Shown here: positions 13,135 through 38,865 of the stretch, piece by piece
Position numbering within the stretch: the stretch's first letter is position 1
How the letters are laid out: each line of letters begins with the position of its first letter
Assembly: GCF_003473485.1 (NCBI RefSeq)
Contig: NC_053048.1
Location: 30,376,755-30,440,754, forward strand
Length of the DNA: 64,000 nucleotides
Direction of reading: 5' to 3'
From: Medicago truncatula
Taxonomy: Eukaryota; Streptophyta; Magnoliopsida; Fabales; Fabaceae
Position numbers and translations under genes: made by a program
Notes under the pieces: generated by a model
Database searches by the model: none
Told to the model about the DNA's origin: nothing
Seen by the model: only the letters and a program-made list of their open reading frames with translations

Positions 13135-13373
13135 ATTACTTTTCTTGGATCTATAAAACAAAGACATTCAATTATGGTTTTAAATTGGAGTTGCACTTGG
13201 AACTTTGATATTGTGGCAAAATGCTGATAAATGCTGTTGATGCAGTCTAAATTATGTTTTAAATACGATTGCAGAGACCTCTAAAACTTTTATATTGCGG
13301 GCTATAATTTAGAACTATGATTCATATATTAGTTGTTAAAGTTAAGAAGAGAGTATTGCAAGGCTGTGGAGTG

Positions 13374-15744: not shown

Positions 15745-15869
15745 GAATGGAGAGGATATTTACACATGTGGTGAGAATAATCCGTATTCTAAAATAAAGG
15801 AAAAAATGATGATGCCGTCCGTATCAAGATAGTGGACCATAAATGATGTAAGAATCCTTCAAAAAAAAG

Positions 15870-18453: not shown

Positions 18454-18675
18454 CAAAAAAAAAAATCATACCTACATCCCAATTAACATATATATATCTG
18501 AGAGATAATATTTGTACAACTTTTGTAATAACCATTTTATCATATTTACATTGTATTTTAACTTTTTTTCTCTATTATTTTAATTTTTGTGTCAATAGTT
18601 ATTTTTTTATATATAATTAATTGTTCAAATAACATTCATCTTTTCACACATAGTAATGAATCTACATAGTTATTT

Positions 18676-18859
18676 AAATAAAGAGAAATGATATTTGTAT
18701 AATCATTTTTTAACAACTTTCTCTATCATATTCATATTATCTTCTTATTCTCTCTTCCTTTTTCTTTCTTTATTATTTTTTATCAATCAAATAAGAGAAA
18801 ATCAAAATTATCATAAAAGTTATATCAAAGAGTTGTCCATATATCATTGCTGATAAATA
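18676..18859. mobile_element. MITE, second copy of the 15.55-kb family
   Basis: AAATAAAGAGAAATGATATT at the left and its imperfect inverse at the right; the internal pattern (TTATTCTCTC, then ATCAAT-AAGAGAAAA) matches the copy at 15553-15744. A partial further copy precedes it near 18495-18600. Confidence 0.55.
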
Positions 18860-18932: not shown

Positions 18933-18952
18933 TGATGTGATCTCTTACATCA
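18933..18952 (+). promoter_or_regulatory. ocs/as-1-like element of GST-D
   Basis: TGATGTGATCTCTTACATCA is an imperfect palindrome about 550 bp before the GST-D start. The TATA box CTATAAAAAG is at 19389-19398. Confidence 0.65.
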
Positions 18953-19483: not shown

Positions 19484-21759
19484 ATGGCTGCAATTGATGA
19501 AGAAGTTCAGCTTCTGGGTTCTGTGGGAAGTCCATTTGTGATAAGAGTTCAAATTGCTCTAAAATTGAAGGGAATTGAACACAAATATGTTGAAGAAAAA
19601 TTGGGTAATTTGAGTGAAACACTTCTCAAATATAATCCAGTTTATAGGATGGTTCCTGTTCTTGTTCATAATGGGAATCCCATATCAGAATCTCGTGTGA
19701 TTATTGAGTATATTGACGAGGCTTGGAAACAGAACCCTATCTTGCCTTCTGATCCTTACAAAAGAGCTTTGGATCGGTTTTGGTCAAAGTTCATTGATGA
19801 AAAGGTAAATCTAATTTATAGATTATTAGTTATTACCCTTTATGAGATAAATATACAAGTAATTTTAATAGTTATAGTGTGGTTTTAAATTGTGGTTAGG
19901 GACTACAATTTGCAACTGAGTTAGAAAAGTCAATTGCGTGTAGTCAAGTGTCAATCATTAGAAATTTTGGTGAAATTTCATTCATGAATTATATTGGTTA
20001 TGATTAGTTATAAAACACGGACACTCCTCAGATTAGGCTGGTGCCGGACACATACACCGACACATATAATTATACTGAATTATGTGTTTTTCTTAAATTA
20101 TTATCAAGTGTTGCCGTGTCAATGTTTGTGTTGTATCCAGTGTCTCTATCAGTGTTTCATAGGTTATGAGCTTTGTTCAGTATGGCTCAAATATAAACAC
20201 ATATAAGAGGAGCAAGGGGTGGAGAAGGAGCTCGGGTAGTGTAGTGTTGCGAAGCACCCTCCACCCCCGCCCTTGCTTTTGGGCCAAATGTGTGTTAGGC
20301 CCAATTGTTGTTGAGAAGCAACTGGTTGGTTCCTGTAGTACAGTTCAAGGGTATTGTTTTAATTTGGACCGTAGTACTATATCTTGGTTGTAACAATGTA
20401 AACCCTGATTCATAACAGAAATAAACAAAACTATGACTGCTTTATAGTCGTAAGGGTAGGCACCATTGGCCGAACTGCGTGAACAAAGATCATGTCTCAT
20501 TGTCTTTCGATTTTCGTTCCTTTTATATTTCTATACCGGTTGTTGTTCTAACAAGCTTTATCTAAAATCATAGTTTTAGCCACTGATCAAATTCAGTTAT
20601 GAACCACTTTAAACTTTTGTTATGATGTTTAGATTTAGGGAATCTTGTTAAGTTTTGTAGACTTGTTCATGCTTGAATTGAACATATTTTGCAAATTTCA
20701 GATTTGAATGCACTGCATTTTGTAAATTGAGTTTGCAAAAACAACTCTTCAAGATGAGTTTCAACACAATTTTGGTTGCAATCAAACTGAAATGACTACC
20801 AAACAAGATGTATTTTAGTTATACTCTATAACGAATGTTTGGAAATTAGCAACTGAAAACCAAACATACAGTAATTTAGGAGAATATGAATCCTGTGTTT
20901 TGTATTTCATTTTTGCTTGACACACTTACACAACTTGGTTTTTAAAAGATGCATTGGATTTAAGCTTTTTCCCATTTCTATAACTCGAAATACAAAGCTT
21001 CAGAACCAAGAGAAGATCCTTGGCAGTGGAGACTGTTCGTTTTATGCTATATATTTATTTCTTACTGATGTAATGGTAAGGTTATAAGGATAGAAAAATA
21101 CACAGAAAGTCCCATAACGAACACCACGAATTAGCTATAGATAATTAGTCGCATATTAGCTAAACATTCAGTAGATGATCTATATATTATTCATTGCGTT
21201 GTTGATTAGATGATTTTTTTTAGCACTTATGTGATAGTTACAAGTATCCATGTGATTATCTATGAATTTGTTACTTCTTAGCAGTCAATATTTCAATTAC
21301 TAACATGAACCGCATAATGTGTGATCCATGCTAGAATTTATCTACCATGTCACTAAATGTGAACTTTGTCTTGAATTATTTTCTAATCTATATAACTTTA
21401 ATCTGTTCAATCAGTGTACGATTGCTGCATGGAAATCTGTTTTTATGCCTGATGAGAAAGAGCGCGAGAAGGCTCGTGAAGAATTATTCGAGGCTCTGCA
21501 GTTTCTTGAGAATGAGCTGAAGGACAAGTTCTTTGGAGGAGAAGAAATAGGCTTTGTGGATATTGCTGCTCTCTTTATCCCTTTATTCCAAGAAGTAGCA
21601 GAGAAACAATTGTTCCCTGGTGACAAATTTCCCAAGCTACAAAAATGGAGTCTAGACTTTTACAACCATCCAGTCGTCAAAGAAGTTATGCCTTCAAAAG
21701 AGCAACAATTTGGCTATTTCAAAGCTCGCGCTGCAAGCCTTGCTGCTCCATCAAAATAG
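19484..21759 (+). CDS. GSTU: tau-class glutathione S-transferase (GST-D)
   Basis: Exon 1 is 19484-19804 (107 codons, ending FIDEK) and exon 2 is 21415-21759, giving 221 aa. The phase-0 GT-AG intron is 1610 bp, by far the longest in the array (others 130-422 bp), and holds a MITE. Plus-strand type: [19 protein letters not shown] with likely catalytic Ser16, [30 protein letters not shown] for glutathione binding (Ile replaces the usual Leu). The C-terminal domain has [24 protein letters not shown] at 19389-19398, ocs at 18933-18952. First of the D-E-F tandem trio. Confidence 0.92.
20009..20163. mobile_element. MITE in GST-D intron
   Basis: The ends ATAAAACACGGACACTCCTC and, inverted, CCTATGAAACACTGATAGAG bracket about 155 bp rich in GTGTC/GACAC motifs. 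A better preserved relative is at 30489-30640, and partial relatives follow GST-D (about 22089-22170) and GST-E (about 24705-24775). Confidence 0.6.
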
Positions 21760-21965
21760 AATAATATAATAGAGTGAGACTCTTAACTTGTAATGAAATT
21801 TGTATAAGTACTTGTCTCTGTTTAGTTCTTGATTGTTTGTATTTCAGTTCAAATGGAATATACTCTGATTTCTCATGTGTCATAAAGATCCTGACAGATT
21901 GTTGTCATTTTCGATATTTCAATTTATGAAATGATTGTTGTAAGTTGCATATTTGTAATTCATAA

Positions 21966-22080
21966 GTGAGGTGTGAGCTCATTGGCAAGAGTTTAACCTT
22001 ATAACCTCAAAGGATGGAGTTCAAATCCCTTATGGGACAGTTGAAAAATGGTTGTCAGTGTACTTCATAGCTTAACAAAA
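21966..22080 (+). mobile_element. tRNA-derived SINE-like repeat after GST-D
   Basis: It has a pol III A-box-like TGAGCTCATTGGCAAG (about 21973-21988) and a B-box GAGTTCAAATCCC (22017-22029). The tail half recurs at about 24600-24695 behind GST-E (GAAGTTCAAATCC...GTACTTCATAAGTTAAC), so it was probably there before the D/E duplication. Confidence 0.6.
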
Positions 22081-23136
22081 TAGAATAATTGAATGTAAAC
22101 ACATGTGTCGGTGTCGTGTTTAACACTGGACGCGCCTTCAATCCGAAGTGTAAGTACTACATGGCATACACATACACATACTCCCATTATATTATTGACC
22201 TATGCATGGTAAGCTTATCATTCAAACACTTTCTTCTTCTTTCTGTCATGAGATTCTTTGAAGGCTGTTCTTCAATCCTTTTGGATTTGGGGTTTTTGTC
22301 GGTAACTTGTTCCTCAACTTTGCACCTGAATTTAGTTTTTGTCGGTAACTCTTCGATATCTGCTTGTGGTAAAATTGGTTCTAACTCCTCAAGCTAACCG
22401 TGAACCTATCAACAAAAGAGTATGATGTATCACTTGGATAGAGAATTTCAAATCTATGGTCTATTGGTGTTGAGAATGTAACAAATGATGGATTGAAAGA
22501 TGGGTTGTGTAGATTGTCATCAAATGAGTCAAAGGTCCAACCAGTAGGGAGTAGAAAGCTCCATTTTTCTTCCTCTTCTGTTCTCTCTTTTTCCTCTTCC
22601 CTCTTTTTGTAAACTACGAATAAAATCATCATTTTCCTATTTTTATTTATCATTTTTTTTCTATTTTTTTCTTCTAATAAAATACAGATTGTTCCAACAA
22701 TCACTATTGAAACTCACATACAACTGTGAGGTTTTGGATTTGAACCCAGGTGAAATGTCCTAGTTTTCAATATCGACACTATGGAATAATCTTTCCTTAA
22801 TTTTTTTCAAATGAAATAGTTAAATGAAGTTATTGTAGATCGAATCAAAGGAGTAATATTTTCAATCTACTAATATGGGTTGTTTGCCTTCTCAATCAAA
22901 TGAATTCACATTCACATATGTATATGGGAATGTGGAAGAATCTACACTGTTTAGGATTCCTGCTATCATATTTCCTTTACTACAAATTAAAATTTCATTC
23001 AATACTTTTGCAGAAACTGGAAATGCCGACAACAAAACTAGAATTGAATCAATTACTTTAGTCAAGAAAAGAGAAATAGAATAGAATCAATATGATTTAA
23101 TGAAACACGTTAATTTAATTCAATATATGCGTAGAT
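22081..23136. other. intergenic between GST-D and GST-E
   Basis: No gene. The right part (22790-23125) is the upstream region of GST-E and matches 24950-25500 upstream of GST-F, but lacks the SINE and the ocs element present there. Confidence 0.55.
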
Positions 23137-23138
23137 TA

Positions 23139-23284
23139 CTTCCTTTGGTCTCATTTATAAACAACTTTTTACTTTTTAGATTCAATAAAGAAACGATGTA
23201 TATGGTCTATAATTGAGACTATATACCTCATTTATTCAATGAACCTAAATATGAAAGGTTGCTTATAATTGAGACCGATGAGAG
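23139..23284. mobile_element. Stowaway-like MITE in the GST-E promoter
   Basis: 146 bp with TA on both sides (23137-23138, 23285-23286) and inverted ends CTTCCTTTGGTCTCATTTAT / (inverted) CTCATCGGTCTCAATTATAA. It ends about 70 bp before the GST-E start codon and about 28 bp before its TATA box. A decayed counterpart sits at the same place in GST-F (about 25503-25680), so it predates the E/F duplication. Confidence 0.7.
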
Positions 23285-23312
23285 TATAATAATTGTCACG
23301 CAAGATCTGTCC

Positions 23313-23322
23313 CTATTTATAA
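23313..23322 (+). promoter_or_regulatory. TATA box of GST-E
   Basis: CTATTTATAA 33 bp before the ATG, at the same distance and with the same sequence as in GST-F (25697-25706). No ocs palindrome is present upstream of GST-E. Confidence 0.6.
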
Positions 23323-23354
23323 CGTTTTACAACACTAAGAATTCAAGAACTACA

Positions 23355-24165
23355 ATGGCTGCAATTGAAGAAGAGGTTCAGCTTTTGGGTGCAGTGGGAA
23401 GTCCATTTGTGATAAGGGTTCAAATTGCTCTAAAATTGAAGGGAATTGAACACAAATATGTTGAAGAAAAACTGGGCTATTTGAGTGAAACACTTCTCAA
23501 TTACAATCCAGTTTACAAGATGGTTCCAGTTCTTGTTCATAATGGGAAGCCTATTTCAGAATCACGTGTGATTCTTGAGTATATTGATGAGGCTTGGAAA
23601 CAAAACCCTATCTTGCCCAATGATCCTTATCAAAGAGCCTTGGACCGTTTTTGGTCTAAGTTCATTGATGACAAGGTAATCCATTTCTTATATCATAACT
23701 TATACGAATTCAAGCGTTTATAATAAGCGTTAAATTAAGTTTTTTATCGGTAAACTTTGTCCGATTTTATTTTCCGATCTATCTAAAGTTAATTTGTGCA
23801 ATCAGTGTGTGGCTGCTGCATGGAAATCTGTTTTTATACCGGATGAGAAAGAGCGCGAGAAGGCTCGCGAAGAATTATTCGAGGCTCTGCAGTTTCTTGA
23901 GAATGAGCTGAAGGACAAGTTCTTTGGAGGAGAGGAGATTAGCTTTGTGGATATTGCTGCTTCCTTCATCACTTTATTTCAAGATGTAGCAGAGTTTCTG
24001 TTGTTCTCCGGTGACAAATTTCCGAAGCTACACAAATGGAGTCAAGAGTTTTACAACCATCCAGTCGTCAAAGAAATTATGCCGACAAAAGAACAACAAC
24101 ATGGATTTTTCAAAGCTCGCGCTGCAAGCATTGCTGCTGCAAACAAAGCTGCTGCATCAAAATAG
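23355..24165 (+). CDS. GSTU: tau-class glutathione S-transferase (GST-E)
   Basis: Exon 1 is 23355-23675 and exon 2 is 23806-24165, with a 130-bp phase-0 GT-AG intron; 226 aa. N-terminus [19 protein letters not shown] (likely catalytic Ser16), [11 protein letters not shown], then [20 protein letters not shown]. The C-terminus is longer than in A and D, with an alanine-rich [10 protein letters not shown] shared in form with GST-F. The frame is open further up to 23259, but those 32 codons come from the MITE and leader; the chosen ATG matches the paralogues and follows a TATA box at 23313-23322. It lacks the ocs element found in front of GST-F. Confidence 0.93.
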
Positions 24166-24966
24166 ATTAGTATAAGTACTTGACTGTTTTGAGTTATTGG
24201 TTGTTTGAATTTCAGTTCAAATGGAATAATACTATGTGATTTCTCATGTGTCACAAAGGTCCTGAAAGAATATTGTTGTCATTTTCGCTATTTCAATCAA
24301 TGAAAGAATTGTTAACAAGTTGCATGTATGTATAAGATATATGTAATTTTCGTTATTTCAATAAAATATGGTTATGGCTATGAATCCAAATTGATCTAAG
24401 TGGTTTATAAATGAAGGGAATTGCTAACAAATTAAATGCCCTTACGGAACTTGTTAAGAAATCTAAAGAGAAAGTTTTATTTTGGTGTAGTCAAATTTCA
24501 AAAACAACTTAGTCAAACCTTCTTTGAATCATAAACAAGTGTCTGTAAATGAATACACTTTAGTTTATAAGAAGAATATATGGTCGTTAATAAATATGGA
24601 TTTTTATTTCAAGGGATGAAGTTCAAATCCTTTCCAAGACAATTGAAAAATGGTTGTTAATGTACTTCATAAGTTAACAAAATAGAATAACTAATGTAAA
24701 TGCATGTGTAGGTATCGTGTCTAACACCGAATACACATTTAATCTGATGTTTGAGTACTACATATCATACATAGTGAGGCTGCCCTCACAAGTAGACATT
24801 GTAATTGACGCCTCGCTTCAAATTAGTCGATTATTGAGTCAGGCATCAAGGTTTCAAAAAAAAGAAAGTTCTTACAATCTAACAAAACTTATGTTATTAG
24901 ATAAGTTCAGATAAGGATATTCAACATATGCACTAAGATAGTGTTTAAAAGAGTAATCTTCTATTG
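24166..24966. other. intergenic between GST-E and GST-F
   Basis: Duplicated downstream sequence: SINE tail at about 24600-24695 and a MITE-like piece at 24705-24775, both matching the GST-D downstream region. No gene. Confidence 0.55.
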
Positions 24967-24977
24967 AATAATATTTT

Positions 24978-25099
24978 TTTTTTAAGAAACCCATTTGGGG
25001 TTGGCCTAGTGGTTGGCTTGGGATCTTGGAGTTTGCTCCTCCAGAGGTCTCAGGTTCGATTCTCGATTCTTGGATTGGATACCGAGTTTTCAAAAAAAA
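24978..25099 (+). mobile_element. tRNA-derived SINE in the GST-F promoter
   Basis: About 122 bp with an A-box TGGCCTAGTGG and a B-box GGTTCGATTCTC, an A-rich 3' end, and a perfect 11-bp target duplication AATAATATTTT (24967-24977 and 25100-25110). The same place upstream of GST-E (about 22783-22800) is uninterrupted, which marks this as an insertion later than the E/F duplication. It is not a tRNA gene because the acceptor stem and 3' half do not fold as one. Confidence 0.85.
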
Positions 25100-25231
25100 A
25101 ATAATATTTTCTTAAGTTTTACAAGTGAAATTGTTAAATGCAGTTATTGTAGATCGAATCGAAGAATTAAAAAAATTTCAATCTAATAATACTGGTTGTT
25201 TGCCTTCTTAATCAAGACAACTGCAAAGAGG

Positions 25232-25251
25232 TGATGTAAGACCAGACATCA
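25232..25251 (+). promoter_or_regulatory. ocs/as-1-like element of GST-F
   Basis: TGATGTAAGACCAGACATCA, 446 bp before the TATA box CTATTTATAA (25697-25706). The surrounding TTAATCAAGAC...CATCAGC block matches the ocs regions of minus-strand genes H and I in the same orientation. Confidence 0.7.
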
Positions 25252-25738
25252 GCGACATGTGTTATGGAATATGAATTAAGTGTAGTCGACATAACTGGAA
25301 CTCATTAATTGTGTTCACATTCATGTGTTATCATATTCCCTTTATTATGAAAATTTACAATTTTCCGGATTCATAACTTAGCAGAAACTGGAAATAAATC
25401 TTAACAACAAAAATAGAATAGAATCAATGACTTTACTCAAAAAAGAATTTAATCAATATAATTAAATGAAATACATTAATTTCATTCGATATAATAATTG
25501 TCCTACTCTCTTCGATTATTACTATAAGTAAAAATTCTTTTTTCAAATTTATTGAATAATTAATTCTCTCAACAACAAAAAAAATTATTGAATAACTAAG
25601 GTATATGGTCTATAATATAGATCTGATACATCAATCATTCAATGAATTTGAAAAACGAATCTTTACTGGTGACCTGAGCAAGTACTTGATTCGTCCCTAT
25701 TTATAATTTGTTACATCACTAAGAATTGAAGTGCTACA

Positions 25739-26688
25739 ATGGCAACAATTGTGAAGCTTTTGGGTTCTGTGGGAAGTCCATTTGTGATAAGAGTTCAAAT
25801 TGCTCTGAAATTGAAGGGTATTGAATACAAATATGTGGAAGAAAAATTAGGCCATTTGAGTGAAACACTTCTCAGATACAACCCTATTTACAAGATGGTT
25901 CCTGTTCTTGTTCACAATGAGAAGCCCGTTTCAGAGTCTCGTGTGATTCTTGAGTATATTGATGAGACTTGGAAACAAAACCCTATCTTGCCTTCTGATC
26001 CTTACAAAAGAGCCTTGGATCGCTTTTGGGCCAAGTTCCTAGATGAGAAGGTAAATCCTAGTTATTAACAGTTATAATCTCATTAGCACGACACTTTTGA
26101 TGATCGAAGGTGTGTTCAGTGTCTGACAAAATATTGCCGTTGTGATGCTATTCTTGTGATATATCTTAAACCTATATATTTTGATAACGATTGAAGTAAT
26201 ATTTCTACGACTAACATGAACAGCCTAATGTGTGATCCATGCTAGAATTTATTTACCATGTCACTAAATGTAAACTTTGCTTATCCGGTTTTATTTTCCT
26301 ATCTATCTAACTTTATTTGTGCAATCAGTGTATGGCTGCTGCAGTGAAATCTCTTTTTATCACTGATGAGAAAGAACGCGAGAAGAGTCGTAAAGAATTA
26401 TTCGAGGCTCTGCAGTTTCTTGAGAATAAGCTGAATGACAAGTTCTTTGGAGGAGAAGAGATTGGTTTTGTGGATATTGCTGCTCTCTTCATCCCATTAT
26501 TCCAACAAGTAGCAGAGTTGCAGTTGGTCCCTGGTGACAAATTTCCGAAGCTACACAAATGGAGTCAAGAGTTTTACAACCATCCAGTCGTCAAGGAAAT
26601 TATGCCGACAAAAGAACAACAATTTGGCTATTTCAAAGCTCGCGCTGCAAGCATTGCTGCTGCAAACAATGCTGCTGCATCAAAGTAG
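25739..26688 (+). CDS. GSTU: tau-class glutathione S-transferase (GST-F)
   Basis: Exon 1 is 25739-26050 (104 codons) and exon 2 is 26329-26688, with a 278-bp phase-0 intron; 223 aa. The N-terminus MATIVKLLG is three residues shorter than its relatives, so the likely catalytic serine in SPFVIRV is Ser13 and the glutathione-binding Glu-Ser pair is 66-67. Exon 1 ends FLDEK. The C-terminal domain has [20 protein letters not shown] and ends [10 protein letters not shown]. The first helix after the intron has AAAVKSLF where the other plus genes have tryptophan before (K/M)S. Closest relative GST-E. TATA 25697-25706, ocs 25232-25251. Confidence 0.93.
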
Positions 26689-27226
26689 ATTATTATAGCG
26701 CGAGACTCTGAACTTGTAATGAAATTTGTACAAGTACTTGTGTGTTGGTGAGTTATTGTTTGTTTGGATTAAGTTCAAATGGAATTTATTGTTTATTATA
26801 ACGCCATTCAATGTGATGAATCAAAAGCTTGTAATATGTTGCTTTAATCAATCAATTAAAGACGGATGTGTTCCCTATAACTCTTCTGCGTCAATCTTTG
26901 CATTTCTAGTGTTAAGACAGTAACTCCAATAAAATAAAGAAACCATAAGCGCAAACAATGTATTCACGATATTTGGTAACAAAGTTCGGTCAATTGTGCC
27001 TACATCTCCGACTACAGTGCGGCTGCATACCACGTGGTGCTACGTCCCCCCGGCAACACACTCAACACTAAGTCTTCCGTAATCTCCTAAATGTTTGACA
27101 ACTATAACCTTAGATGTCACATGGAGAAATCTCTGATTACAAACTATGATTTTGAAATGAAACCCCAACAGCAAAAATCCGATGACAAATAATATTAATA
27201 ACAATCACAAACATGAAATTCTAAGT
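26689..27226. other. spacer between convergent GST-F and GST-G
   Basis: No gene. From about 27110 the sequence is the shared 3' flank of the minus-type GST genes. Around 26960-27080 is a more GC-rich piece (TTCGGTCAATTGTGCCTACA...) that looks repeat-derived but could not be assigned. Confidence 0.45.
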
Positions 27227-28186
27227 CTATTTTGAATCAAAGAGACTCTCATAGTGAGCTTTGAAGTAGGCAAAGAGAGGTTCTCTAGGAGGCATATTTT
27301 CCTTAACAATTGGATGGTTGAGAAATTCTTGGCTCCACTTCGAAAGTTTGGGACACTTTTCAGCATTCAACAATTGCAACCCTGTTATTTCTTGAATCAA
27401 AGGGATCCAAAAAGCTATGTACACAGCTGCAATATCCACAATTCCAATCTCCTCACCTCCAAAGAACTTGTCCTTCAACTCATTCTCAAGAATCTGTAGA
27501 GCCTCAATTGTTCCTTCAACATTCTTCTCGCGCTCTTTCTCATCATGAACGGTATGAACAGCTTTAATCGAAGCAGCTATGATCTGACCATTTCAAAAAT
27601 TTATTAGTAATTTACATGAGAAAAGTACGCGGCTGCGATTTGGACCGTGACATCATAAATGTAATTTTAAGTGTTTTATTCACAAGTCTTGCATTAGTAA
27701 TTTGCGCTTGAAAATACTTGATTTTATCAAAAAAATTACATCATACGTGATTGATGGATTTGTAACGCGAAGACAGTTAAAGCTCCATCAATCACATATG
27801 ATGTAATTTTTTTGATCAAATCAAGTATTTCAACGCTACTGCAATTTAAAATTCAGCGTATTTACCTTGTCGTCGATGAAGTTAGACCAAAATCGAGCCA
27901 AGGCTCTTTGGTATGGATCAGAAGGCAAGATAGGATTTTGTTTCCAAGTCTCATCAATATACTCAATAATCAAAAGGGACTCTGATATAGGCTTTTCATT
28001 GTGAACAAAAACTGGTATCTTTTTATAAACTGGATTATACTTGAGAAGAAGTTCACTTTTGTTGGCCATGTTTTCTTCAAGAAATTTGTATTCAATTCCC
28101 TTCAATTTTAGAGCAATCTGTACCCTGCACACAAATGGGCTTCCTATCGCTCCCAATAGCTTCACTTCTTCCTGATTTGTAGCCAT
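27227..28186 (-). CDS. GSTU: tau-class glutathione S-transferase (GST-G)
   Basis: Exon 1 is 28186-27866 and exon 2 is 27583-27227, with a 282-bp phase-0 GT-AG intron; 225 aa. The N-terminus [22 protein letters not shown] gives likely catalytic Ser16; [11 protein letters not shown] follows for glutathione binding. Exon 2 opens [17 protein letters not shown] and holds [22 protein letters not shown]. The last residues FDSK are one residue shorter in tail than in H and I. The intron contains a long hairpin (see 27713-27829). TATA-like CTATAAAAAAG at 28276-28266 and ocs at 28371-28390. Confidence 0.92.
27713..27829. repeat. long intronic hairpin in GST-G
   Basis: Two arms of about 46 nt (27713-27758 and 27784-27829) pair with about two mismatches around a 25-nt loop. 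Arm starts are AATACTTGATTTTATCAAAA and, inverted, AATACTTGATTTGATCAAAA. Weaker pairing continues outward to about 27700 and 27838. It may be a small MITE or simply a foldback; in RNA it would form a stem long enough for Dicer-like enzymes. No other copy of this arm was noticed in the window. Confidence 0.75.
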
Positions 28187-28370
28187 TGTAGCACTTCAAT
28201 TTTCTCTGACTTTAACAAACTATCAAGAAAATTTATTTATGAGTGTGAGATTTAAGGTACTGTGGCTTTTTTATAGAGTTTGGAAGATTAATTTAGTAAT
28301 TTTCAACCTACATGTTGTTGACTAGATGTGCAAAGGTTTTGCCTTTCCTATCAAGATAATGGACAAGAAG

Positions 28371-28390
28371 TGATGTAAGGGATTACACCA
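28371..28390 (-). promoter_or_regulatory. ocs/as-1-like element of GST-G
   Basis: TGATGTAAGGGATTACACCA, about 95 bp upstream of the TATA-like box at 28266-28276. Confidence 0.7.
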
Positions 28391-28859
28391 GCAATATACA
28401 TATAAAAATACTTAAGTGTAGTCAACATGAGAATGGATATTATTATTAATTGTATGCACATGTATGTATATATACACGTGGGAACAATTTAGACTATTGG
28501 GTGCCAGAGCCCCTTTTCTATTGAATTTTTCCTGAATAATATTTTATAATTTAATTAAATAGTTTGATATTATTTAATAGGAATTAAATATATATACAAA
28601 ATTACTTTTTTAATTTTTTTTATTAAACTAATTTCATAAATAAAATTTTTTATCAAATTAATGTGTATTATTATTTGATGTGATCCAATGAACTTTTAAA
28701 ATAAGGTGGATGAATTCAATTCATCTATAGTTTTAAATCGATCTATCCTAATGAATCCATTAGCCTATTTTTTGTTTGGTGGATGGATTAGATAGATAAA
28801 TCGATGGATGGCGGATTGATGGATAAATTGTCACCCTTAATTGGCATAGACAAGCTATC
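28391..28859. repeat. AT-rich spacer with a dispersed GGATGGATT-type repeat
   Basis: 28680-28850 (GGTGGATGAATTCAATTCAT ... GTTTGGTGGATGGATTAGAT) matches 39818-39990. No gene. Confidence 0.5.
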
Positions 28860-29170
28860 TATGCTAATTCAAGAAAAGGTGCAAGTCAATGTGTGGCATC
28901 CAGGATATCCAACATTGTTCTTGTGTTTTGCAGATAATTGTCTTTTGTTTACTCAAGTCAGATTGGTAAAATAGGTGCTAGAGAGTTTCTGTCAAGCTTC
29001 TAGCATGGAAGTCCGAATTCAGAAGTCTAGAATATCCATGTCTTCTGCTAATATCTCCTGGAATAAAGTAGATAAGTTTCCATCTATTGTTTATTTTACT
29101 CAATATTCTCAACTTGGAAGATATTTGGGTTTTCGTATGCTCTATGGGATTCACACTGCTTGAGCTGTGA
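28860..29170 (+). mobile_element. LINE reverse-transcriptase fragment
   Basis: The translation shows pieces of a plant LINE reverse transcriptase: LCFADNCLLFT (the active-site FADD box with Asp changed to Asn) near 28921-28955, then an FCQASSMEV segment, KSRISMSSANISWN and LGRYLGFRMLYG (to about 29145). Several stops interrupt the frame. It is a small relic on a different part of ORF2 from the remnant at 4.4-5.6 kb. Confidence 0.75.
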
Positions 29171-29301
29171 ATATTGTGATTCTTGGTAAACATGTATGGG
29201 AAATTATGTCTTCCCAACCCACCCCCTCTCCCTGATAGCTGGACTCGCCTATGACTAATTCTTCACCTCTATCCACCCACATGTTAAGCACGTGACGTGA
29301 C

Positions 29302-30094
29302 TGTTAGAACTCAATTGACAGTCACACATAGAGAAAGGGGGAGAGAACAAATGAAGATAAACTCCGTATATTGAAATGCAGGGCCGGACTTTGGGGTGTA
29401 AGGTGCTCAATGGAACTGGGTTTTCCTAAGATATGGGCCTAACAAAAAAATTATAACCTAGTAGTACTACTGCGCTATAAACAAAAATTCCTTATTCTCT
29501 TTCTCTCTGATACCACGCGTTCCATCACCATCACTGCATCAGACTTCCTTTTCTTCTTCCCCAATTTGATTTCATTTTCCTCTTCCGTTATCTTGTTTTA
29601 GGCCTATTAGAATTGGGTCCTCTTGCATTTGGTGTTAGGTGGGTGTTTTTTTGGGAGGGTGGTTTGAGGATCCTCATGTATACGGTAGTAATTTTCATCT
29701 TTGGGTGTATCGCATATATACGGTACATTGTATTTATCTTTTAAAAAATTTAAATAGAACATTATTCTCTTAAACAAAATACGTTTTTATTTTATTACAG
29801 GTCTCTTTTCACTTACAGAGTCGAGCCTCCAAATTCGTAGGAACGGACCTGTTGAAATGGAGTCAACTTGTGTGTGATACATGAGATGTGTTATCATATT
29901 TAAACTTTATAGAGTTCCTATTTAAAAGACTAACTATACACTTGAATCTGTAGTTAACTAACTTGTAATAGCTAACTCTAGTTATAGTTATTAACTATAA
30001 CTTCTCTAACTACTTTAACAACTACCAAATAACAACCTAACTAACTCTATGTAGTTACAAATAAATATACTTAAATCTGAATTATACACCAACA
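29302..30094 (-). mobile_element. Copia-like LTR interrupted by a hAT element
   Basis: The outer ends read TGTTAG... and ...CACCAACA, and on the minus strand the LTR opens TGTTGGTGTATAATTCAG, a common form of legume Copia LTRs. Without the nested hAT element and its extra 8-bp repeat it is about 310 bp. No primer site or internal region lies next to it, so it is probably a solo LTR. The 5-bp flanks (GTGAC, GTCAT) do not clearly match, so the ends are approximate. Confidence 0.55.
29379..29851. mobile_element. non-autonomous hAT element, 473 bp, with 8-bp target duplication
   Basis: A perfect 8-bp duplication TTGAAATG (29371-29378 and 29852-29859) and inverted ends CAGGGCCGGAC...TTTGG / CAGGTCCGTTCC fit the hAT superfamily. 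No transposase frame. It is nested in the Copia-like LTR and is therefore younger than it. Confidence 0.85.
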
Positions 30095-30488
30095 GTCATA
30101 CCTGTGTTAGACATGTGACAAAAGCTTAGCTGTCCTCCCTATTCTATGTTTTTAGGAGAGGGGTATGGTGCCAAACTATTCCTGATGGTCCAAGTATCAT
30201 CTAAGACTTCTCATGTGTCATTAAGATCCTACAATCTTCTGGTCCTTTTTTGCGTTTTCAATTCATGAAAAGACTGGAATTGGAAAAATGATTTTGAATT
30301 TTAACACTTCACATAATGTGTGAGTAAAGTATTCAAGCTTGAGTACTGCATACGTAATTTTCGAAATATAATATAGGTATGCTAATATCTTTCATGACAT
30401 CAAAGATATGCTTCTCAAGGATTAGAATGTCAAGATTCTTGATACTTTGTGCAAAGGGAATCAATGTGCATATATTTTAACTTTACAT

Positions 30489-30640
30489 CTATGAAGCACG
30501 GACACTCCTCAGATAAGGTATGTCACTTTGTTAGACACGTGTCGTGTCTAAATTATGCGATTTTCTAAATTTTGTATATGTGTCGGTGTGTCAGTATCCA
30601 TGTCGTGTTCGATGTCCGTGTCCGTATCCTTACTTCATAG
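30489..30640. mobile_element. MITE (about 152 bp) of the GST-D intron family
   Basis: Inverted ends CTATGAAGCACGGACACTCC and CTATGAAGTAAGGATACGGA, with a direct TTTACA on each side (30482-30487, 30642-30647). The interior is rich in GTGTCGTGTC motifs. Superfamily not assigned. Confidence 0.65.
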
Positions 30641-31265
30641 ATTTACATAGTACTAGTTGGCAGGCGCCTTGAGCCTGTTCCGGAAGTTTGATCGAATAGA
30701 TCCCAATTTTTTTATCCTTTTTAATCTTATGGTAAAGGTGAAGATTATGTGATAAACATCTTGAAACGTGTCTGAAACAATATTAGTTTGTATGATCTTG
30801 TTGGTGGTATTTTATTAGAAGAACTGAAGTCATTAGAAGTATTTAATTATTTAATCAAGATCAAATTTCATAATCTGAAGACATAAAAATGTTTTACCAA
30901 TGCATACATAACTTATCGAATAATATAAACTATCAAGGTTACAAGTGCAGATAGTTTCACCTATGCATACATACATACTAACGTACATACAAAACTTATA
31001 GAATAATATAAACTATCATATTTAGCTACCACATCAAGAGTTCTACTCGATCACATCAAATGTACGTGCAGCTACCAACTGAGATATGTGCTTACGGGAC
31101 AAAAATCCTTTTCTTTATTGATTGAAATATGAAAAATGACAACAATATTATTGATTTCTTCCTCATGGAAAAAACTACATACCAAAACTTATTATGAAAT
31201 GAAATCCCAACAGTAAAAACACAATGACAGAAAATAAGTGCTTTCACAAACTTGAAATTCTGAAT
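30641..31265. other. intergenic before GST-H 3' end
   Basis: AT-rich, no gene. The last 150 bp is the shared 3' flank of minus-type GST genes. Confidence 0.5.
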
Positions 31266-32155
31266 CTATTTAGAAGCAGAAACAAGGGCATCATATTTAG
31301 CTTTGAAAAATGCAAAAAGAGGGTCTCTAGCAGGCACATGTTCCTTCACAGCAGGATGGTTGAGAAATTCTTGGCTCCATTTGTAAAGCTTTGGATACTT
31401 TTCAGCATTGAACAATTTCAATTCAGCTATGTCTTGAATCAAAGGGATCCAAAAAGCTATGAACACAGCAGCAATATCCACAAAGTTAATCTCTTCTCCC
31501 CCAAAGTACTTGTTCTTCAGCTCATTCTCAAGAATCTGCAGAGCCTCGGTTGATTCTTCAACATTCTTCTGGCGCTCCTTCTCATCGTTAACAGCATAAA
31601 CAGCTTTGAATGAAGAGGTCACAATCTGATCATTTATTCGTAAATTTTTATGTTAGAAAATAATCAGCACAAACGTAACGATATAGAATATTCGACTTAG
31701 GTAACATTTTTTTAAAAAATATACGTGTCTGCGATCTGGGCTGTGACATCAAAATAAAAAAATTAAAATTTTTTGTGCATATCATCGTGATATATTACAA
31801 CGCGATCACAATATAAAAGCTTTAGAAAACTTACCTTGTCATCGATGAATTTCGACCAAAATCGAGCCAATGATTTTTGGTATGGATCAGACGACAAAAT
31901 GGGATTTTGTTTCCAAACCTCATCAATGTACTCAAGAATCACAAGGGATTCTGATATCGGCTTCTCATTGTGAACAAGAACTGGAATTTTCTTATGAACC
32001 GGATTGTATTTGAGGAGAAGATCACTTTTGTTTGTCAAGTCTTCTTTAACAAATTCGTATTCAATTCCTTTGAATTTGAGTGCAATCTGTACCCTGCAAA
32101 AAAATGGGCTTCCCACAACTCCCAAAAGTTTCACATCTTCCTGATTTGTAGCCAT
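31266..32155 (-). CDS. GSTU: tau-class glutathione S-transferase (GST-H)
   Basis: Exon 1 is 32155-31835 and exon 2 is 31625-31266, with a 209-bp phase-0 GT-AG intron; 226 aa. N-terminus [22 protein letters not shown]: the residue after SPF is phenylalanine instead of valine, next to the likely catalytic Ser16. [11 protein letters not shown] follows for glutathione binding, then in exon 2 [20 protein letters not shown] and FFGG-like [20 protein letters not shown]. It ends LVSASK. An in-frame ATG at 32200 would add 15 residues not found in the paralogues. TATA CTATAAAAGG at 32256-32247 and ocs at 32299-32318. Closest to GST-I. Confidence 0.93.
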
Positions 32156-32298
32156 TGATTGCAACTCAACAATTTTCTCTCTGACTTTATCAACTATCAA
32201 GGCAATTTTGTGTTAATGTGTGAGGTATTCCTAAGGTCTTGTGTGGCCTTTTATAGGAGTACATTGTTGCTTTCTCAATCAAGACGGTTGAAAAAAAG

Positions 32299-32318
32299 TG
32301 ATGCAAGACATTACATCA
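32299..32318 (-). promoter_or_regulatory. ocs/as-1-like element of GST-H
   Basis: TGATGCAAGACATTACATCA, 43 bp upstream of the TATA box at 32247-32256. It is embedded in a block (TTTCTCAATCAAGAC...ACATCAGC) shared with GST-F. Confidence 0.75.
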
Positions 32319-33108
32319 GCTAAATGTGTATAGAAAATAAATTAAGTTCTTAACCAAAAAAATAAATGAATTAAAGTGTATTGGACCAAACAATGGAAAT
32401 CATTAAATGTGTTCACATTTTTGTCAAAAAAAAAAAATTAATTGTGTTCATATGTATATATACGTGGGAACAATCTAGACCGTTGAGAATTGCTGTCATA
32501 TTGCCTTAACAACAAAAATAGAATAGAATCTGTATAATGTAATGAATCAATATACTTTAATGAAACACATCAATGTATTTACATGGGAGCTGATTCTCTC
32601 CTGTGATCGGAGAGTCCAATGAGATCTAAGCCATTTATTTTCTACTACTCCATGTGGGCCTTCAATATTGAAGTAATTGAATGGTATATTCTCTCCATTG
32701 AAAATTTCACTGGAGGGGATTTGCACCCGTATTTACATACTCCTTTTATACAATAAATCTTGTTTGGGTAGAATGAGATTTATTCTATGTTTGGAGAAAT
32801 TAATTTTTTACCAATTTGAAAATCTTTTACACTAAAATCTCAAAATCACAAAAATATACTCCAACCACTATATGATCACCTCCGACCACCGCCGACGAGC
32901 ACTCTAATGGCACCTCCAACCATCGCGGCCACCTGATCGTCAATAACCATGTGACGAACACCACTCCAACCATCAATGATGATCATACATTTATTTACCG
33001 GAAAAACCTCAATAGATGAACATACTTTTTATTTTGACAAGAGATGAACATACTCTTTTGAAGGAATATATGAACATACTTAATACTACTAGTTTTTATA
33101 TTTATTTA
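32319..33108. other. spacer with relic of a plus-type GST promoter
   Basis: 32505-32585 (AACAACAAAAATAGAATAG ... AATGAAACACATCAATGTAT) matches the proximal promoters of GST-E and GST-F, although no plus-strand GST follows here. The rest has no gene. Confidence 0.6.
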
Positions 33109-33257
33109 TTATTTTAAAAAGTTGAACATACAAAAAGGCCCCCAACAAAGAATAAATTAGAAATGATTATAAACAGATATCCTTTTTTTTATTTGCATAA
33201 ATTAAGCACATATTAAAAACCTACACCAAGACATAATAGTCTTTCACTTTTATTATG

Positions 33258-33473
33258 AAAGAACAAATAAATGAATCAATTCTCATTAAGTGCGATCAAA
33301 GTGATAGTACAACTTATATAGGAGAGGTGAAATACTATAGGAACTATGCTACACTAACTATATACTAACAATCACTCTAATTCAGTTAGGCAAATGTAAC
33401 TAACTGATAACTTGTATATCAAGTTATCTCTATATCTAGGATTTATCATCACTAATGTCTTCACTATGCAATA
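33258..33473 (-). mobile_element. Copia-LTR-like insertion in the USP-derived copy
   Basis: About 215 bp present here and absent from the matching place in USP intron 2 (42393). On the minus strand it has CTATATAAG and an AATGAGAATTGATTCATTTA stretch, typical of short legume Copia LTRs. The ends are not sharply defined. Confidence 0.4.
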
Positions 33474-34281
33474 ACTTTCATCCATTCATCTACTATTAAA
33501 AACGTACAAATGATTAATCGTATTAATGTCTTCAACCCTATATTGATCATCATCGCTTCAACATGTCTATATTGTTTTTCGATTGCCATGTTATTGGTAC
33601 AAACTTTCCACCATTGTTTATCGATGACTATTCCTCGTCAAAGAATTTGTGAGGAACACAAGGTGGGTTTTCTCTTCTCCATCTAATTTTTTCCATACGC
33701 AAAAATCGAAGATCGAACCCCTGTCCACTTACATAAGGGATTCAAGTCTCTTACCACTAACTAATTTATTGTTGATATGATTCAACATGTCCTTAACACT
33801 CTTGGATGTGTACAAGATGTCTCTAAAAATGTCTAAGGTGTTTCGAAACAAAAAAAAAAATTGTTTTGATGAAACACTTGTCTTTTCTGAATTGTAGTAT
33901 ATGTGTCGTATATACACTTGACTTGTCTGAATTGTGTGGTATATGTGTCGTATCTTGTTCGACAAGAGACAACTTTGTATTCATACTTTTAATCCTTTTA
34001 TGAACACCAAACAAACTTTTTTTCAATCGTTGTTTTAGAGTTTTGAAAAATATGAACGGTCAAAACTTTATTGAAGTCTCATGTGGATTCGATATTTGTT
34101 TTTGATGATAAACCGACATACTTACCGTGTTTGAAGATTTTAAAACAGAAAATTGAAAAACATCAAAACGGCACCTTAACAATTTTGAAACTTATATCGG
34201 AAAGATAGTATTGTTGTATTGATGATCCTAAATAATTTGATTTGGAAATACAAGCAATGGAAATGCACTAAGGTTACCTTT

Positions 34282-34367
34282 TTTTTTTGTGGTCGGGTTT
34301 GAACCCGAACTTTGCGTATATTATGCATTGTCCTTACCAACTAAGTTAAGCTCACGATGACCACTAT
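34282..34367 (-). mobile_element. tRNA-derived SINE
   Basis: On the minus strand: A-box-like TTAACTTAGTTGGTAAGG, B-box GGTTCAAACCCG, then a poly(A) of about eight. Flanked by the 10-bp duplication GGTTACCTTT (34272-34281 and 34368-34377). The matching flank of the USP gene (about 40655-40670) is an empty site. Confidence 0.8.
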
Positions 34368-34811
34368 GGTTACCTTTAAACTTGATAAATGTGCAGCAAG
34401 ACATTCAATTTTTCTAGAAAAAGAAAAAATTGAGAACAATTTTCTAGAAAGATATGTTGATATAGATTATTATACAGGTTTTAAATAAACTATAGCTCAT
34501 ATTAAAATATATATAATTATTATAATTATTAAAGAGAAAATCAACAATGAATACCTCAACATATTTATAATTTATTCATATTTTACATGGCAGTTTACAA
34601 TTGACATTACTTTTTTTTATTAACAATAGACATCAATACTAGAAACAAACAATGTACGAGGCCAAATTAATAAAACACTCCAAATTACATTATTATTGAA
34701 TTTCCAACTCATGGAAAAGAACCACATACCAAAACATATTATGAAATGAAATCCAAACAACAAAACTAAATGACAGATAATAAGTTCTTTCACAAACTTG
34801 AAATTCTGAAT

Positions 34812-35749
34812 CTATTTTGAAGCAGAAACAGCTCTATCATATCTAGCCTTGAAATTTGCAAAAAGAGGGTCTCTAAGAGGCACATTCTCCTTCACAATTG
34901 GATGGTTGAGAAATTCTTGGCTCCATTTGTAAAGCTTTGGATACTTTTCAGCAGTGAACCATTTCAACCCTATTAAGTCTTGAAACAAAGGGATCCAAAA
35001 AGCTATGAACACAGCAGAAATATCCACAAAACCAATCTCCTCTCCCCCAAAGAACTTGTCCTTCAGCTCATTCTCGAGAATCTGCAGAGCTCCAGTTGAT
35101 TCTTCAATATTCTTCTCGCGCTCTTTCTCATCGTTAAAAGCATAAACAGCTTTCAATGTAGGAGTCGCAATCTGATCATTACAAAAATTTGAACATTTAT
35201 AATTAGTTATTTTTACGTTAGAAAAATAATCAACGAAACATTATTTAGATATTCTGCTTTCGAAGTGATTTCGATTTGGGATTCAACATCAACATAAAAA
35301 ATAAAAATATGTTCGTGCATAGAAATTGTAACGTGACTGCAATTAAAGATACAACAACCACATTTGAGTGCAAATGTCTGTGATATCAAATATTGCAATG
35401 CTCAATTTAAAAGTTTTAGGAAATTTACCTTGTCATCGATGAACTTGGACCAAAATCGAGCCAATGATTTTTGGTATGGATCGGACGGTAAAATGGGATT
35501 TTGTTTCCAAACCTCATCAATATACTGAAGAATCACAAGAGATTCTGATATAGGCTTCTCATTGTGAACAAAAACTGGAACCTTCTTATGAACTGGATTG
35601 TATATGAGGAGAAGATCGCTTTTGTTGGCCAAGTCTTCTTGAACATATTTGTATTCAATTCCTTTCCACTTAAGAGCAATCTGTACCCTGCAAGCAAATG
35701 GGCTTCCGAGAGCTCCTAGAAGTTGCACCTCTTCTTGATTTGTCGACAT
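34812..35749 (-). CDS. GSTU: tau-class glutathione S-transferase (GST-I)
   Basis: Exon 1 is 35749-35429 and exon 2 is 35171-34812, with a 257-bp phase-0 GT-AG intron; 226 aa. N-terminus [22 protein letters not shown] (likely catalytic Ser16). The glutathione-binding segment is [11 protein letters not shown], with Gln where the others have Glu after the Glu-Ser pair. Exon 2 opens [17 protein letters not shown] and holds [20 protein letters not shown]; it ends AVSASK. An in-frame ATG four codons upstream (35761) is possible; I prefer the one that matches the paralogues. TATA CTATAAAAGG at 35822-35813, ocs at 35844-35863. Rightmost GST of the array. Confidence 0.93.
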
Positions 35750-35843
35750 TGATTGCAACACTTAAATATTCTCTCCGACTTTTGTTTTGATGTTAGTTCT
35801 AAGCTCTTGTGGCCTTTTATAGGAGTACACTATTGCAAAAAAG

Positions 35844-35863
35844 TTATGTAAGACGTTACATCA
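35844..35863 (-). promoter_or_regulatory. ocs/as-1-like element of GST-I
   Basis: TTATGTAAGACGTTACATCA, only 22 bp upstream of the TATA box at 35813-35822. One half-site (ACGTTACATCA) is well preserved. Confidence 0.7.
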
Positions 35864-36640
35864 GCATTATATGTATCGAAAATGAATGAGAATCAAAATC
35901 TTTAATCAAGACCGTTGAGAATTCATGTTATCATATTTCCATTATTAATTTGCTGAAAGTGGAAATACTTGCAGAAACTGGAAATAGATTCTATTAAAAG
36001 AAGAAAAGCTGGAAATTGATCTTAACAACAAAAATAGAATAGAATCAGTATAATTTAATGAAACACATTAATTTCACTCAATGTATTTATCTACTGCGTT
36101 TACACGATAAAACATGATTGTGTAGAATGAGATTTAATTGATTTTTTTACTTGATTTGAAAACCGTTTTCACCTAAATCTCAAAACCACAAAAATATTGT
36201 TATTATTATTTGTTGGGTTTTGTTAACCAGTGTCTTAACTCGTTGGTTAAAGAATTCATTAATATTGCCAGCCATATACTCAAGTTATAGCAAATTGTCC
36301 CTTTGATCCAAAATGTCACTTGCATCTCTTCATCACATTCTGCTGCCAGTTCACCACTCCAAAACCAACCATAAACACAGATATATGCAGCAATCGGCGA
36401 ACAGACTAAACCATACCCAACCACACCTGCCATTCCAAAGTTTCTCAGAACATAAAAACCAACTTTTTTATGCAAACCTACTTATTTTAGTACTTTAATA
36501 AATGTTCCAAAGGCATTCATTAGCATTCTCCTTATTTTTTTAGCATTAACACATCATCGTAGATTTGCGTTTGCCCCTTTTTTTAGGCCTGAGAGTTACT
36601 TTTGAATCGAAGTATTAACTGTTGTATTTTGGTTTTCCAA
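35864..36640. other. spacer with relic of a plus-type GST promoter
   Basis: 35925-36110 (GTTATCATATTTCC ... AGAAACTGGAAATAG ... AGAATAGAATCAGTATAATT) matches the GST-E (22965-23135) and GST-F (25325-25500) promoters in the same orientation, with no GST following. No gene in the rest. Confidence 0.6.
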
Positions 36641-36821
36641 ATTCTATTATTTACCGAAGTTGAGTCACGACCAGGTCGCTCTCTTTAAGACGTTTCGTGG
36701 CACTGCCCAAAATTGTGCAAGACAGACTATCAACCACGCCGCCTCCAGGATAAAACAAGCTCAGCTGCAACTGTGCGGTTAACTACTGCACTGTAGAAAA
36801 CCGTTCGAGAATTACACCTTC

Positions 36822-37205
36822 AATATGGTACTAAGACCACTCTTTTAATGCTGAAACCAATATGGTACTATGACCACTCTATTATTGTGTTGAGACCACT
36901 AAATATGGTGTTACCACCATTCTAATTTTTTAACTTCTCCAAATATCAATATGGTATTTCAACCACTCAAATATGGTGTTACGACCATACTAACATCTAA
37001 CTTCTTCAAGAATTGAAGAAGAATATATATGTTTAAGATCATTCTTATTATACCGAAAAGGGACTATGATCTTAAAATATTATTTATTCTAAAAAGACAT
37101 AAATAATTGAAGGGACTATGCTCTTAAGACTATTCTTGATTCCGAAGGGACAATATATCGACAAGGGACTATATGGTCTTAAGAACACTCTTAATTCCGA
37201 AGGAA
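36822..37205. repeat. two adjoining short minisatellites
   Basis: 36822-36985 has about six variants of an AATATGGTRTTAMGACCAC motif. 37063-37205 has about four spaced variants of a GGGACTATG...CTTAAGA...ATTCCGAA unit. They may be part of an old LTR element, but no ends could be found. Confidence 0.6.
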
Positions 37206-38229
37206 CGGAAAGGAGTAGAAAAAGGAGAAGGACTTTTAACACAAAAATATATTATTGAGTATCAAAATATATCTCAGATTATGTACTAAAATATATTAGA
37301 TTGCCTACTCAAATATTCTTTTTATGTTGGGAAAACGGGGTGTTACAGCTTACTTCATTCACATAACTATGTACCTCTTAGAGGTACACCCCCATTATAT
37401 AAACACTACTAATGTGTTCCATCCAATGTGGGACTTCCACTTTTTTTCAATTCACACAACACTAGTTCTACCCAACATGGGAATTTGTGTTTAGTCTTTT
37501 AACTCAATTTTCACACATATGTTCCAACAGATGCCACTCGGATGAATGAATATAAGTTTCCTGTAAAACAAATAGTTGTCACTTAAAACTACAATCCCAT
37601 ATTTTGATTAGAATTACTAATGTTGAATTAAATAAGTTTGTTACTGAAAATGGTTAACATGTGAGTAATGACTCTTAATTATCAATCTAACTATTTTATT
37701 CTTCCTCCAAAAGAATCACTTTATCACTTCTATTTTACTTTTTTAGTCATTTTTTTGGATCGAGTTACAATTCTATTTTATTTAGGACACATTTGAAGAA
37801 GAAGCACAAGCTTGCTTGATACAAAACTATCTTAAATTAGTAGAAAGAATTTCTAATAAGAGAATTGTAACTTGTGTAAAGTAATATAAGTCTCTCTTCA
37901 TGTATTATTATCATTAGGGTTGTTTTTTATTAAATTCCATAAACCCAATTAGATAAAGAGAACACCAGCCATTGATCAGAATTTATGTTTTTCCACATTC
38001 AGGAGCGTTTAGCTGAGATGACACATGTCTCTTCTAGTTTAACCAAGGTTTTGGGTTCAAATTGGATATGCAGTAGGTTCCTGTTCATTTCTCGAAGAAT
38101 TAATATAGTTGAACGAAGGAAACACATTTACAACAAAAAAAAAATTATTTTTTTCCATTGGACAAATTGAATGAAACAATAATTCATCAGAACATAAGGA
38201 TTCAACGAAACCATGAATAAATGCAAATG
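37206..38229. other. intergenic
   Basis: No gene. 37342-37528 (TGTTACAGC ... TTCCAACA with TATATAAAC near 37397) could be a short LTR, but its 5-bp flanks do not match, so I do not call it. Confidence 0.4.
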
Positions 38230-38865
38230 CTAATCAAAAAAAGGAACATAAAGGTAGTTATCATATCTTAATACACAAAAAACATTAATTAATGGTACTA
38301 TAACAAACAAACATGAAACCAAAGAGGTTGCAGCTGCCATGAATATGAGAAAGTAGAACGCAGTGAAGAGTAAGAAGGCGCCACTGGAAACTGTAACGAC
38401 AAACAATAGCATAATGACGCGGAAGCTAGGACGGTGGTAACGGAGAGGTGTTTTGAGGAAAACGGAGATCATGTAACTGAACATGAAACAGGCGACTGAA
38501 GCGAGTGAGATCTTAGCCACAGTTTGCTGTATGGTTAATGGAGCATTTTGGAAGAAGCCGAGTAACAGAATTGGATGCGATGCCACCATGGCCATACGGA
38601 ACCCTAACTTCCTCATCTAATCTACGTTGACGTCCGCCATTGTTGGAAAACCGAACCTAAAATGAAGAAAAACCAAGAACAAATCTATAATTAACAAAAA
38701 CTATGAAATTACGATCACCTTTCACAAGAATTTAAGGCAAAACACAAACCATGGAGCAGCGGTGGATGTGACCGGAGAAGGAGGAGATGCAAGCACCAAG
38801 GAAGATGACGAAACGGTTTGGCCTGCATCGGTGGTGGCAGAAGGTGGTTGTTGCGGTGGAGACAT
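38230..38865 (-). CDS. small multi-pass membrane protein, unknown family; possibly a pseudogene
   Basis: I do not recognise this protein. The clear part is 38616-38230: 128 residues starting MRKLGFRMAMVASHPILLLG with hydrophobic segments at about 36-54, 66-90 and 92-116. Upstream, a plausible first exon 38865-38750 (MSPPQQPPSATTDAGQ..., Ser/Pro-rich) could splice at GT-AG to 38656 and continue in the same frame through MADVNVD, but a TAG at 38619-38617 interrupts directly before MRKLG. Either the gene uses the ATG at 38616, or translation restarts, or it is a young pseudogene with a single stop. It stands alone on the minus strand between the GST array and USP. Confidence 0.45.

Follow-up and report, generated by a model that had tools for sequence, protein, structure and literature searches.

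In a 64,000-nt window of the Medicago truncatula genome (RefSeq assembly GCF_003473485.1, contig NC_053048.1, positions 30,376,755 to 30,440,754 of the forward strand; coordinates below count from the first base of this window), two neighboring plus-strand glutathione S-transferase (GST) genes, E and F, share an upstream block of sequence with two minus-strand genes of the same tandem array, H and I. The block lies in the same genomic orientation at all four genes and contains an ocs element in F, H and I. We consider it moderately likely that the common ancestor of E and F captured this block late, in reversed direction, from the upstream region of an H/I-type gene inside the array. The array takes up the window and approximately 39 kb to its left on C7, in a genome of 430 Mb and 42 contigs, and runs from seven minus-strand genes (T1 to T7) through A (plus), B (minus), the broken R13 (plus), C (minus) and D, E and F (all plus) to G, H and I (all minus). 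All 15 GST genes whose structure was parsed have a single intron after about 107 codons, a structure that may point to the tau class (GSTU), and the GST_N domain was found above the cut-off in exon 1 of E (1.2e-17) and of H, and also at 16 places on C7.

The block was traced by BLASTN inside the window, where all listed matches between its copies were on the same strand. F matched H over 25200-25281 and 32267-32347 (78%, E-value 3e-12) and again over 25271-25321 and 32366-32419 (83%), and matched I over 25222-25276 and 35834-35887 (76%, E-value 4e-4). Farther to the right, E 22939-23128 matched I 35904-36086 (71%, E-value 4e-16) and F 25376-25493 matched I 35967-36085 (76%, E-value 2e-13), with shorter matches linking H to F (32505-32574 and 25400-25480, 73%) and to E (32516-32561 and 23074-23119, 80%). 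These comparisons bear out two claims of a preliminary description of the window, that the ocs block of F recurs at H and I in unchanged genomic orientation and that proximal promoter sequence of E and F continues to the right of the ocs at both minus-strand genes, and the matches fall where that description had placed them; no plus-strand GST was found beyond the block to the right of H or I. The comparisons also correct that description in some points. E lacks the ocs element, with a gap at approximately 22899/22900 where F is longer by about 95 bp; E and F are alike on both sides of it (E 22785-22899 with F 25100-25215, 84%; E 22961 onward with F 25326 onward). Likewise, the string TTAATCAAGAC, said to lie left of the ocs in I, is found to its right, while GTGTTCACATT is present in F and H and absent from I, which carries an internal duplication within the block. 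G, which the description did not list, shares part of the block (Table 1), and the right half (AATAGAATAG onward) was found in E, F, H and I only. A short interspersed nuclear element (SINE)-type tRNA-like insertion with an A-tail, read by eye at 24990-25098, adjoins the F block on its left.

Genome-wide searches with the F, E and I blocks (E-value of at most 10) returned only the places at E, F, H and I, all on the plus strand, and gave no further match for the left part that is private to E and F; these searches skip very common words, and uniqueness holds within their sensitivity. At its left border the agreement between F and H extends to 25196 and 32264, respectively, 7 bp outside the H TATA string (32249-32256), and the border score was reached by 0 of 1000 shuffles for F against H and by 1 of 1000 for E against H. 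On the right the match runs out near position 23128 in E and 36088 in I. Between the block and the TATA-like box of E lies a repeat resembling a miniature inverted-repeat transposable element (MITE), for which the genome gave 1086 first-look candidates, 40 of them scored to yield 71 matches; F has a degenerate relative at about 25503-25681, at the same or a neighboring site. The string TTTTCAATCTA to the left of E and F gave likenesses to the minus-strand genes that are too weak for use (31 to 46 of 1000 shuffles for E-C, F-C and E-G; 193 to 383 of 1000 for E-B, F-B and F-G).

Compared with D, their closest coding relative, E and F have a different upstream region: similarity between D and E begins only at -15, and BLASTN found no upstream match of E or F to D beyond that point. 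For a test of the core promoters we used the 90 bp upstream of -45, read in gene sense with the MITE left out, and 2000 shuffles. The E and F cores match each other, with no shuffle reaching the score, and neither matches the cores of D, B, C, G, H or I (849 to 1932 shuffles); the D core weakly resembles those of B, C, H and I (56 to 134 shuffles), and not that of G (817). The spacers from D to E and from E to F are homologous, each passing from the 3′ flank of a plus-strand gene into the block and then the gene, with repeats inserted in the D-to-E spacer. Because E and F have this left junction in common, it predates their duplication and one event suffices; the repeated copying with independent one-sided losses that the preliminary description envisaged is not needed.

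The direction of the ocs element also sets F apart. We scanned the 17 promoters of the array, to 1.5 kb, scoring candidate sites out of 20 against a consensus and counting as strong those of at least 19. Strong sites (19 or 20 of 20) were present in 11 of the 17 promoters and absent within 1.5 kb of T1, T4, T6, A, R13 and E; a strict ocs pattern had 0 matches in the window. For T2, T3, T5, T7, B, C, D, G and H the score is higher against the gene strand (for H by one point), I shows a tie between strands and takes its direction from its flanks, which align with H in the same genomic direction, and F alone in the array scores higher in gene sense. We also built a profile of the minus-gene ocs regions from B, C, G, H and I, with the C and I flanks trimmed, and ran it on the other 12 promoters, six of which matched with an E-value below 0.01: F at 1.5e-10 on the strand opposite to its gene, and D, T3, T2, T7 and T5 in the ordinary direction, from 1.7e-8 (D) to 0.0055. 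E retains a faint reversed remnant of the ocs region (E-value 0.092). The ordinary direction is thus common to the outgroup minus-strand genes and the plus-strand gene D, and the reversal is specific to E and F. At other GST loci, scores of at least 19 occurred in 3 of 24 upstream regions (22 distinct by place, and one with only 98 bp). An insertion of about 685 bp (15073-15758) separates the TATA region of C from its ocs, and a similar piece lies upstream of D (18664-18851).

The block also looks younger than the genes that it accompanies. A coding tree of 15 genes, leaving out T2 (exon 2 border unparsed) and the broken R13, placed A, D, E and F in one clade and B, C, G, H and I in another, with support of 100 each. 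In the tree of ocs flanks, by comparison, F pairs with H (85% ultrafast bootstrap), and the T genes form a clade (97). Divergence at synonymous sites (Ks), tabulated for 12 of the 15 tree genes, was 0.79-0.83 for coding pairs of E or F with H or I (confidence intervals within 0.58-1.21), 0.29 for E-F and 0.28 for H-I. The pairwise divergence of the block (K) was 0.20 for E-I, 0.20 for F-I, 0.18 for F-H and 0.19 for E-H (confidence intervals within 0.11-0.29), and 0.16 for both E-F and H-I. With K near 0.2 in the block and Ks near 0.8 in the coding regions, the block is probably younger than the split between plus-strand and minus-strand genes, and probably joined E and F late instead of founding the array; the argument is a contrast of block with genes, not an absolute age.

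We therefore favor, at the level of confidence given above, a capture in which the common ancestor of E and F, a plus-strand GST resembling D, would have lost its upstream sequence from a point inside the 5′ leader outward and received instead a copy of the sequence upstream of a minus-strand GST of the H/I type, genomic orientation unchanged. The captured piece would start a few bases outside the donor TATA box, include the ocs and reach about 300 bp upstream, and it would point backwards relative to E and F. The new promoter would have been completed by a TATA-like box, some 40 bp before the ATG and with the MITE just upstream, and the captured ocs, at about -500 from the F ATG, would act from behind as an orientation-tolerant enhancer; ocs elements are sites for TGA bZIP factors and tolerate either orientation. 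Tandem duplication would then have given E and F, with the ocs lost in E, and the donor side would have given H and I, so that E would have lost its ocs input and F would be driven by a reversed ocs. We infer the direction of transfer, that it happened once, that a D-type promoter was lost and that there is any promoter activity. For the account in full, in which the back side of a neighbor's ocs promoter revived a tandem copy that had arrived without its own promoter, truncated within the 5′ leader, and in which the later copy E then lost the ocs, we would put the chances at about even.

Several observations weigh against the capture. Exon 1 places D beside E (84) and exon 2 places E beside F (97), a conflict that suggests possible exchange among D, E and F, which may have blurred their order. 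The remaining nodes of the ocs-flank tree have 24-54% support. Pairwise K uses alignable pieces and leans low (0.19 for G-H, against a Ks of 0.56), and one multiple alignment gave K of 0.44-0.66 between E/F and H/I, though it put H-I at 0.62 as well. Three MAFFT modes gave proportions of differing sites (p) of 0.21-0.29, 0.27-0.44 and 0.29-0.43; the block alignment depends on the mode because of the internal duplication of I, and site patterns for a four-block tree amounted to 0-4 sites per topology and mode and do not separate the topologies. The match of the D core to the minus-strand genes is weak (profile E-value 0.71), and A, the first-branching plus-strand gene, is among those with no strong ocs, so that the ancestral plus-strand promoter has to be read from D and the T genes. 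Two GST genes elsewhere, on chromosome 1, also score slightly higher in gene sense (19 versus 18), and for this reason the reversal in F rests on the flanks and not on the motif alone. Finally, the right half of the block was found only in E, F, H and I, with no outgroup copy, so that it may have begun either as upstream DNA of a minus-strand gene or as the proximal promoter of a plus-strand gene.

A possible though rather doubtful alternative reduces the divergent pair of the preliminary description to one late junction, at which an H/I-type minus-strand gene and the E/F ancestor stood head to head for a short time, both using one ocs, before the pair was copied and one copy lost the minus-strand gene (giving E/F) and the other the plus-strand gene (giving H/I). 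The extent of the block, from just outside the H TATA string to short of the E/F TATA region, is like that of a region between two TATA boxes, and the gene order from A to G nearly alternates between strands, a pattern that would be complete with one minus-strand gene, since lost, between D and E. Divergent junctions do exist at T7/A, B/R13 and C/D, but the distances between start codons there are 9454, 1868 and 4532 bp, respectively; at B/R13 the ocs of B is the only one found between the genes, yet it is about 1.6 kb from the broken R13, and C and D each have their own. The equal Ks of E-F and H-I agrees with the copying of a pair, and the dispersed repeat to the right of the I block occupies the place where a former plus-strand partner would have begun, so the partner could have been cut away. 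Against this, two extra gene losses are needed, no minus-gene body was recognized to the left of E or F, and no plus-gene core or coding relic to the right of H or I.

These relics were sought with plus-gene units in 32575-34780 and 36080-38300 and with minus-gene units in 21870-22945 and 24230-25225. No coding relic of a lost partner was recognized beside H, I, E or F in these stretches, the protein matches having E-values of 0.2 or worse; the best DNA matches (to 6e-10) joined 3′ flank to 3′ flank in gene direction, and residual DNA matches of 16-28 bp at E-values of 0.004-0.03 were taken as chance. A counterpart of the E/F core was not found to the right of H or I (121-311 of 1000 shuffles reached the scores), nor in a repeat of the test (709-1832 of 2000) in which the H stretch began further left than intended. 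Only promoter sequence is shared, to 7 bp from the H TATA string, with no core-promoter relic recognized. The array holds no intact head-to-head GST pair less than about 1 kb apart, the left neighbors of E and F being plus-strand GSTs, and outside the array the 56 GST_N matches listed include no divergent pair separated by less than about 39 kb.

The preliminary description had gone further, deriving the whole array from one minus-strand gene, a two-way ocs and one plus-strand gene, copied several times. The part of this idea that stands is one ocs-centered block found on the same strand at genes of both orientations; the growth of the array from such a pair we regard as very improbable. The T genes and D have their ocs in the ordinary direction, the split between plus-strand and minus-strand genes probably long predates the block, the promoters of A and R13 are of another type in which no strong ocs lies within 1.5 kb, and the F block pairs with that of H instead of standing apart from the minus-strand promoters; a rescue would require an older shared promoter to have been replaced in D, A and all T genes. 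An inversion in place of the ocs block upstream of E and F, without transfer from H or I, would explain how the ocs came to be reversed while the gene stayed in place, but it is disfavored to the point of being scarcely credible, as the F block is far nearer to H (local score 73) than to D read in the same direction (24) and the upstream regions of E and F have no BLASTN match to D beyond -15. That the block is a dispersed repeat, which the preliminary description named as the finding that would undo its proposal, or a chance likeness of AT-rich promoters, is refuted within the search sensitivity even though the adjoining MITE and the right flank of H and I are repeats, because no copies were found at non-GST loci in 430 Mb and the E-values in the window reach 4e-16.

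The mannopine synthase 1′/2′ dual promoter of the Agrobacterium T-DNA is reportedly divergent, with an ocs-type element between opposite genes, whereas this array now has no intact close divergent pair. The same near-palindromic 20-bp element occurs upstream of GST genes with ocs/as-1 promoters, such as Arabidopsis GSTF8, GSTU7 and GSTU19 and soybean GH2/4; here, in contrast, the F copy is reversed, as the whole region matches genes on the opposite strand, and the E copy is lost. Many GST genes have as-1/ocs elements that are essential for salicylate induction, according to PMC10799724, and TGA factors bind such elements, which several GSTs require for their response to salicylate. PMC3834115 describes a bidirectional promoter in which one intergenic region serves two divergent genes, At4g35985 and At4g35987; that pair is intact, whereas here only promoter pieces are present, in four separate single genes. 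In Drosophila yakuba, tandem duplications that shuffle regulatory elements change expression (PMC5460883), a study with expression data, whereas ours considers sequence alone and concerns an older array, where the donor region runs backwards with respect to the gene. Among the papers listed from open-licence PubMed Central text, none dealt with legume GST arrays in which an ocs promoter is shared or reversed.

Table 1. Features of the GST array discussed in the text (window coordinates)
Feature	Positions	Strand	Remarks
GST D	19484..21759	+	closest coding relative of E/F; ocs direction ordinary
GST E	23355..24165	+	exon 1 23355-23675, exon 2 23806-24165; 226 aa; both exons open
GST F	25739..26688	+	exon 1 25739-26050, exon 2 26329-26688; 223 aa; both exons open
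GST H	31266..32155	-	exon 1 GST_N 6e-22
GST I	34812..35749	-	
E upstream block	22785..23128	+	like that of F but without ocs; BLASTN to F and I
F upstream block	25196..25493	+	ocs and both flanks; BLASTN to H/I; reversed relative to gene compared with other ocs genes of the array
G upstream region	28335..28494	+	ocs flank and ~120 bp to its right, common to F and H
H upstream block	32264..32581	+	H is a minus-strand gene
I upstream block	35830..36088	+	I is a minus-strand gene; BLASTN, genome search
D ocs	18933..18952	-	ordinary gene-relative direction; profile match 1.7e-8
F ocs-like element	25232..25251	+	TGATGTAAGACCAGACATCA
G ocs	28371-28390		motif scan and flanks
H ocs	32299-32318		motif scan
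I ocs	35844-35863		motif scan and flanks
E TATA-like box	23314..23322	+	TATTTATAA; ~40 bp from ATG; same motif in F
F TATA-like box	25698..25706	+	TATTTATAA; ~40 bp from ATG
MITE-like palindromic repeat	23138..23287	+	between E block and E TATA box
Insertion in H upstream region	32585..32738		flanked by TATTTACAT copies at 32576-32584 and 32730-32738; splits sequence common to H and I
Dispersed repeat right of I block	36109..36197	+	common to H; 8 genome places outside the array

Elsewhere in the array, R13 (13135-13693, plus strand) is a broken GST relic nearest to A, with the promoter type of A, and A-B together with R13 suggests a duplicated plus/minus unit. The upstream sequences of A (8270-8474) and R13 (13135-13373) share a promoter of a third type among the plus-strand genes, one that matches neither D nor E/F upstream, which indicates that plus-gene promoters in the array changed more than once. 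At the right end of the window two direct copies, 47201-55139 and 56056-64000 (truncated where the window stops), agree at 99.86% identity over 7.9 kb. On the minus strand each carries a 495-aa frame matching Retrotrans_gag, and the pair is a recent tandem duplication of a Ty3-type element or of a region around one. A 279-aa open frame at 4728-5564 matches RVT_3, a reverse-transcriptase-like domain, at 3e-13.

Tandem GST arrays are a source of genes for stress and detoxification, and it is a general question how the expression of their copies diverges. In this array a whole promoter has seemingly been swapped between copies on opposite strands, which would be a case of promoter reshuffling inside a tandem array. 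If the capture is true, the genes would form a natural test series in which D, G, H and I have an ordinary ocs, F has a reversed one and E has the same reversed promoter lacking the element; within this series E, F and D would offer a ready comparison of a lost, a reversed and an ordinary ocs in otherwise similar genes.

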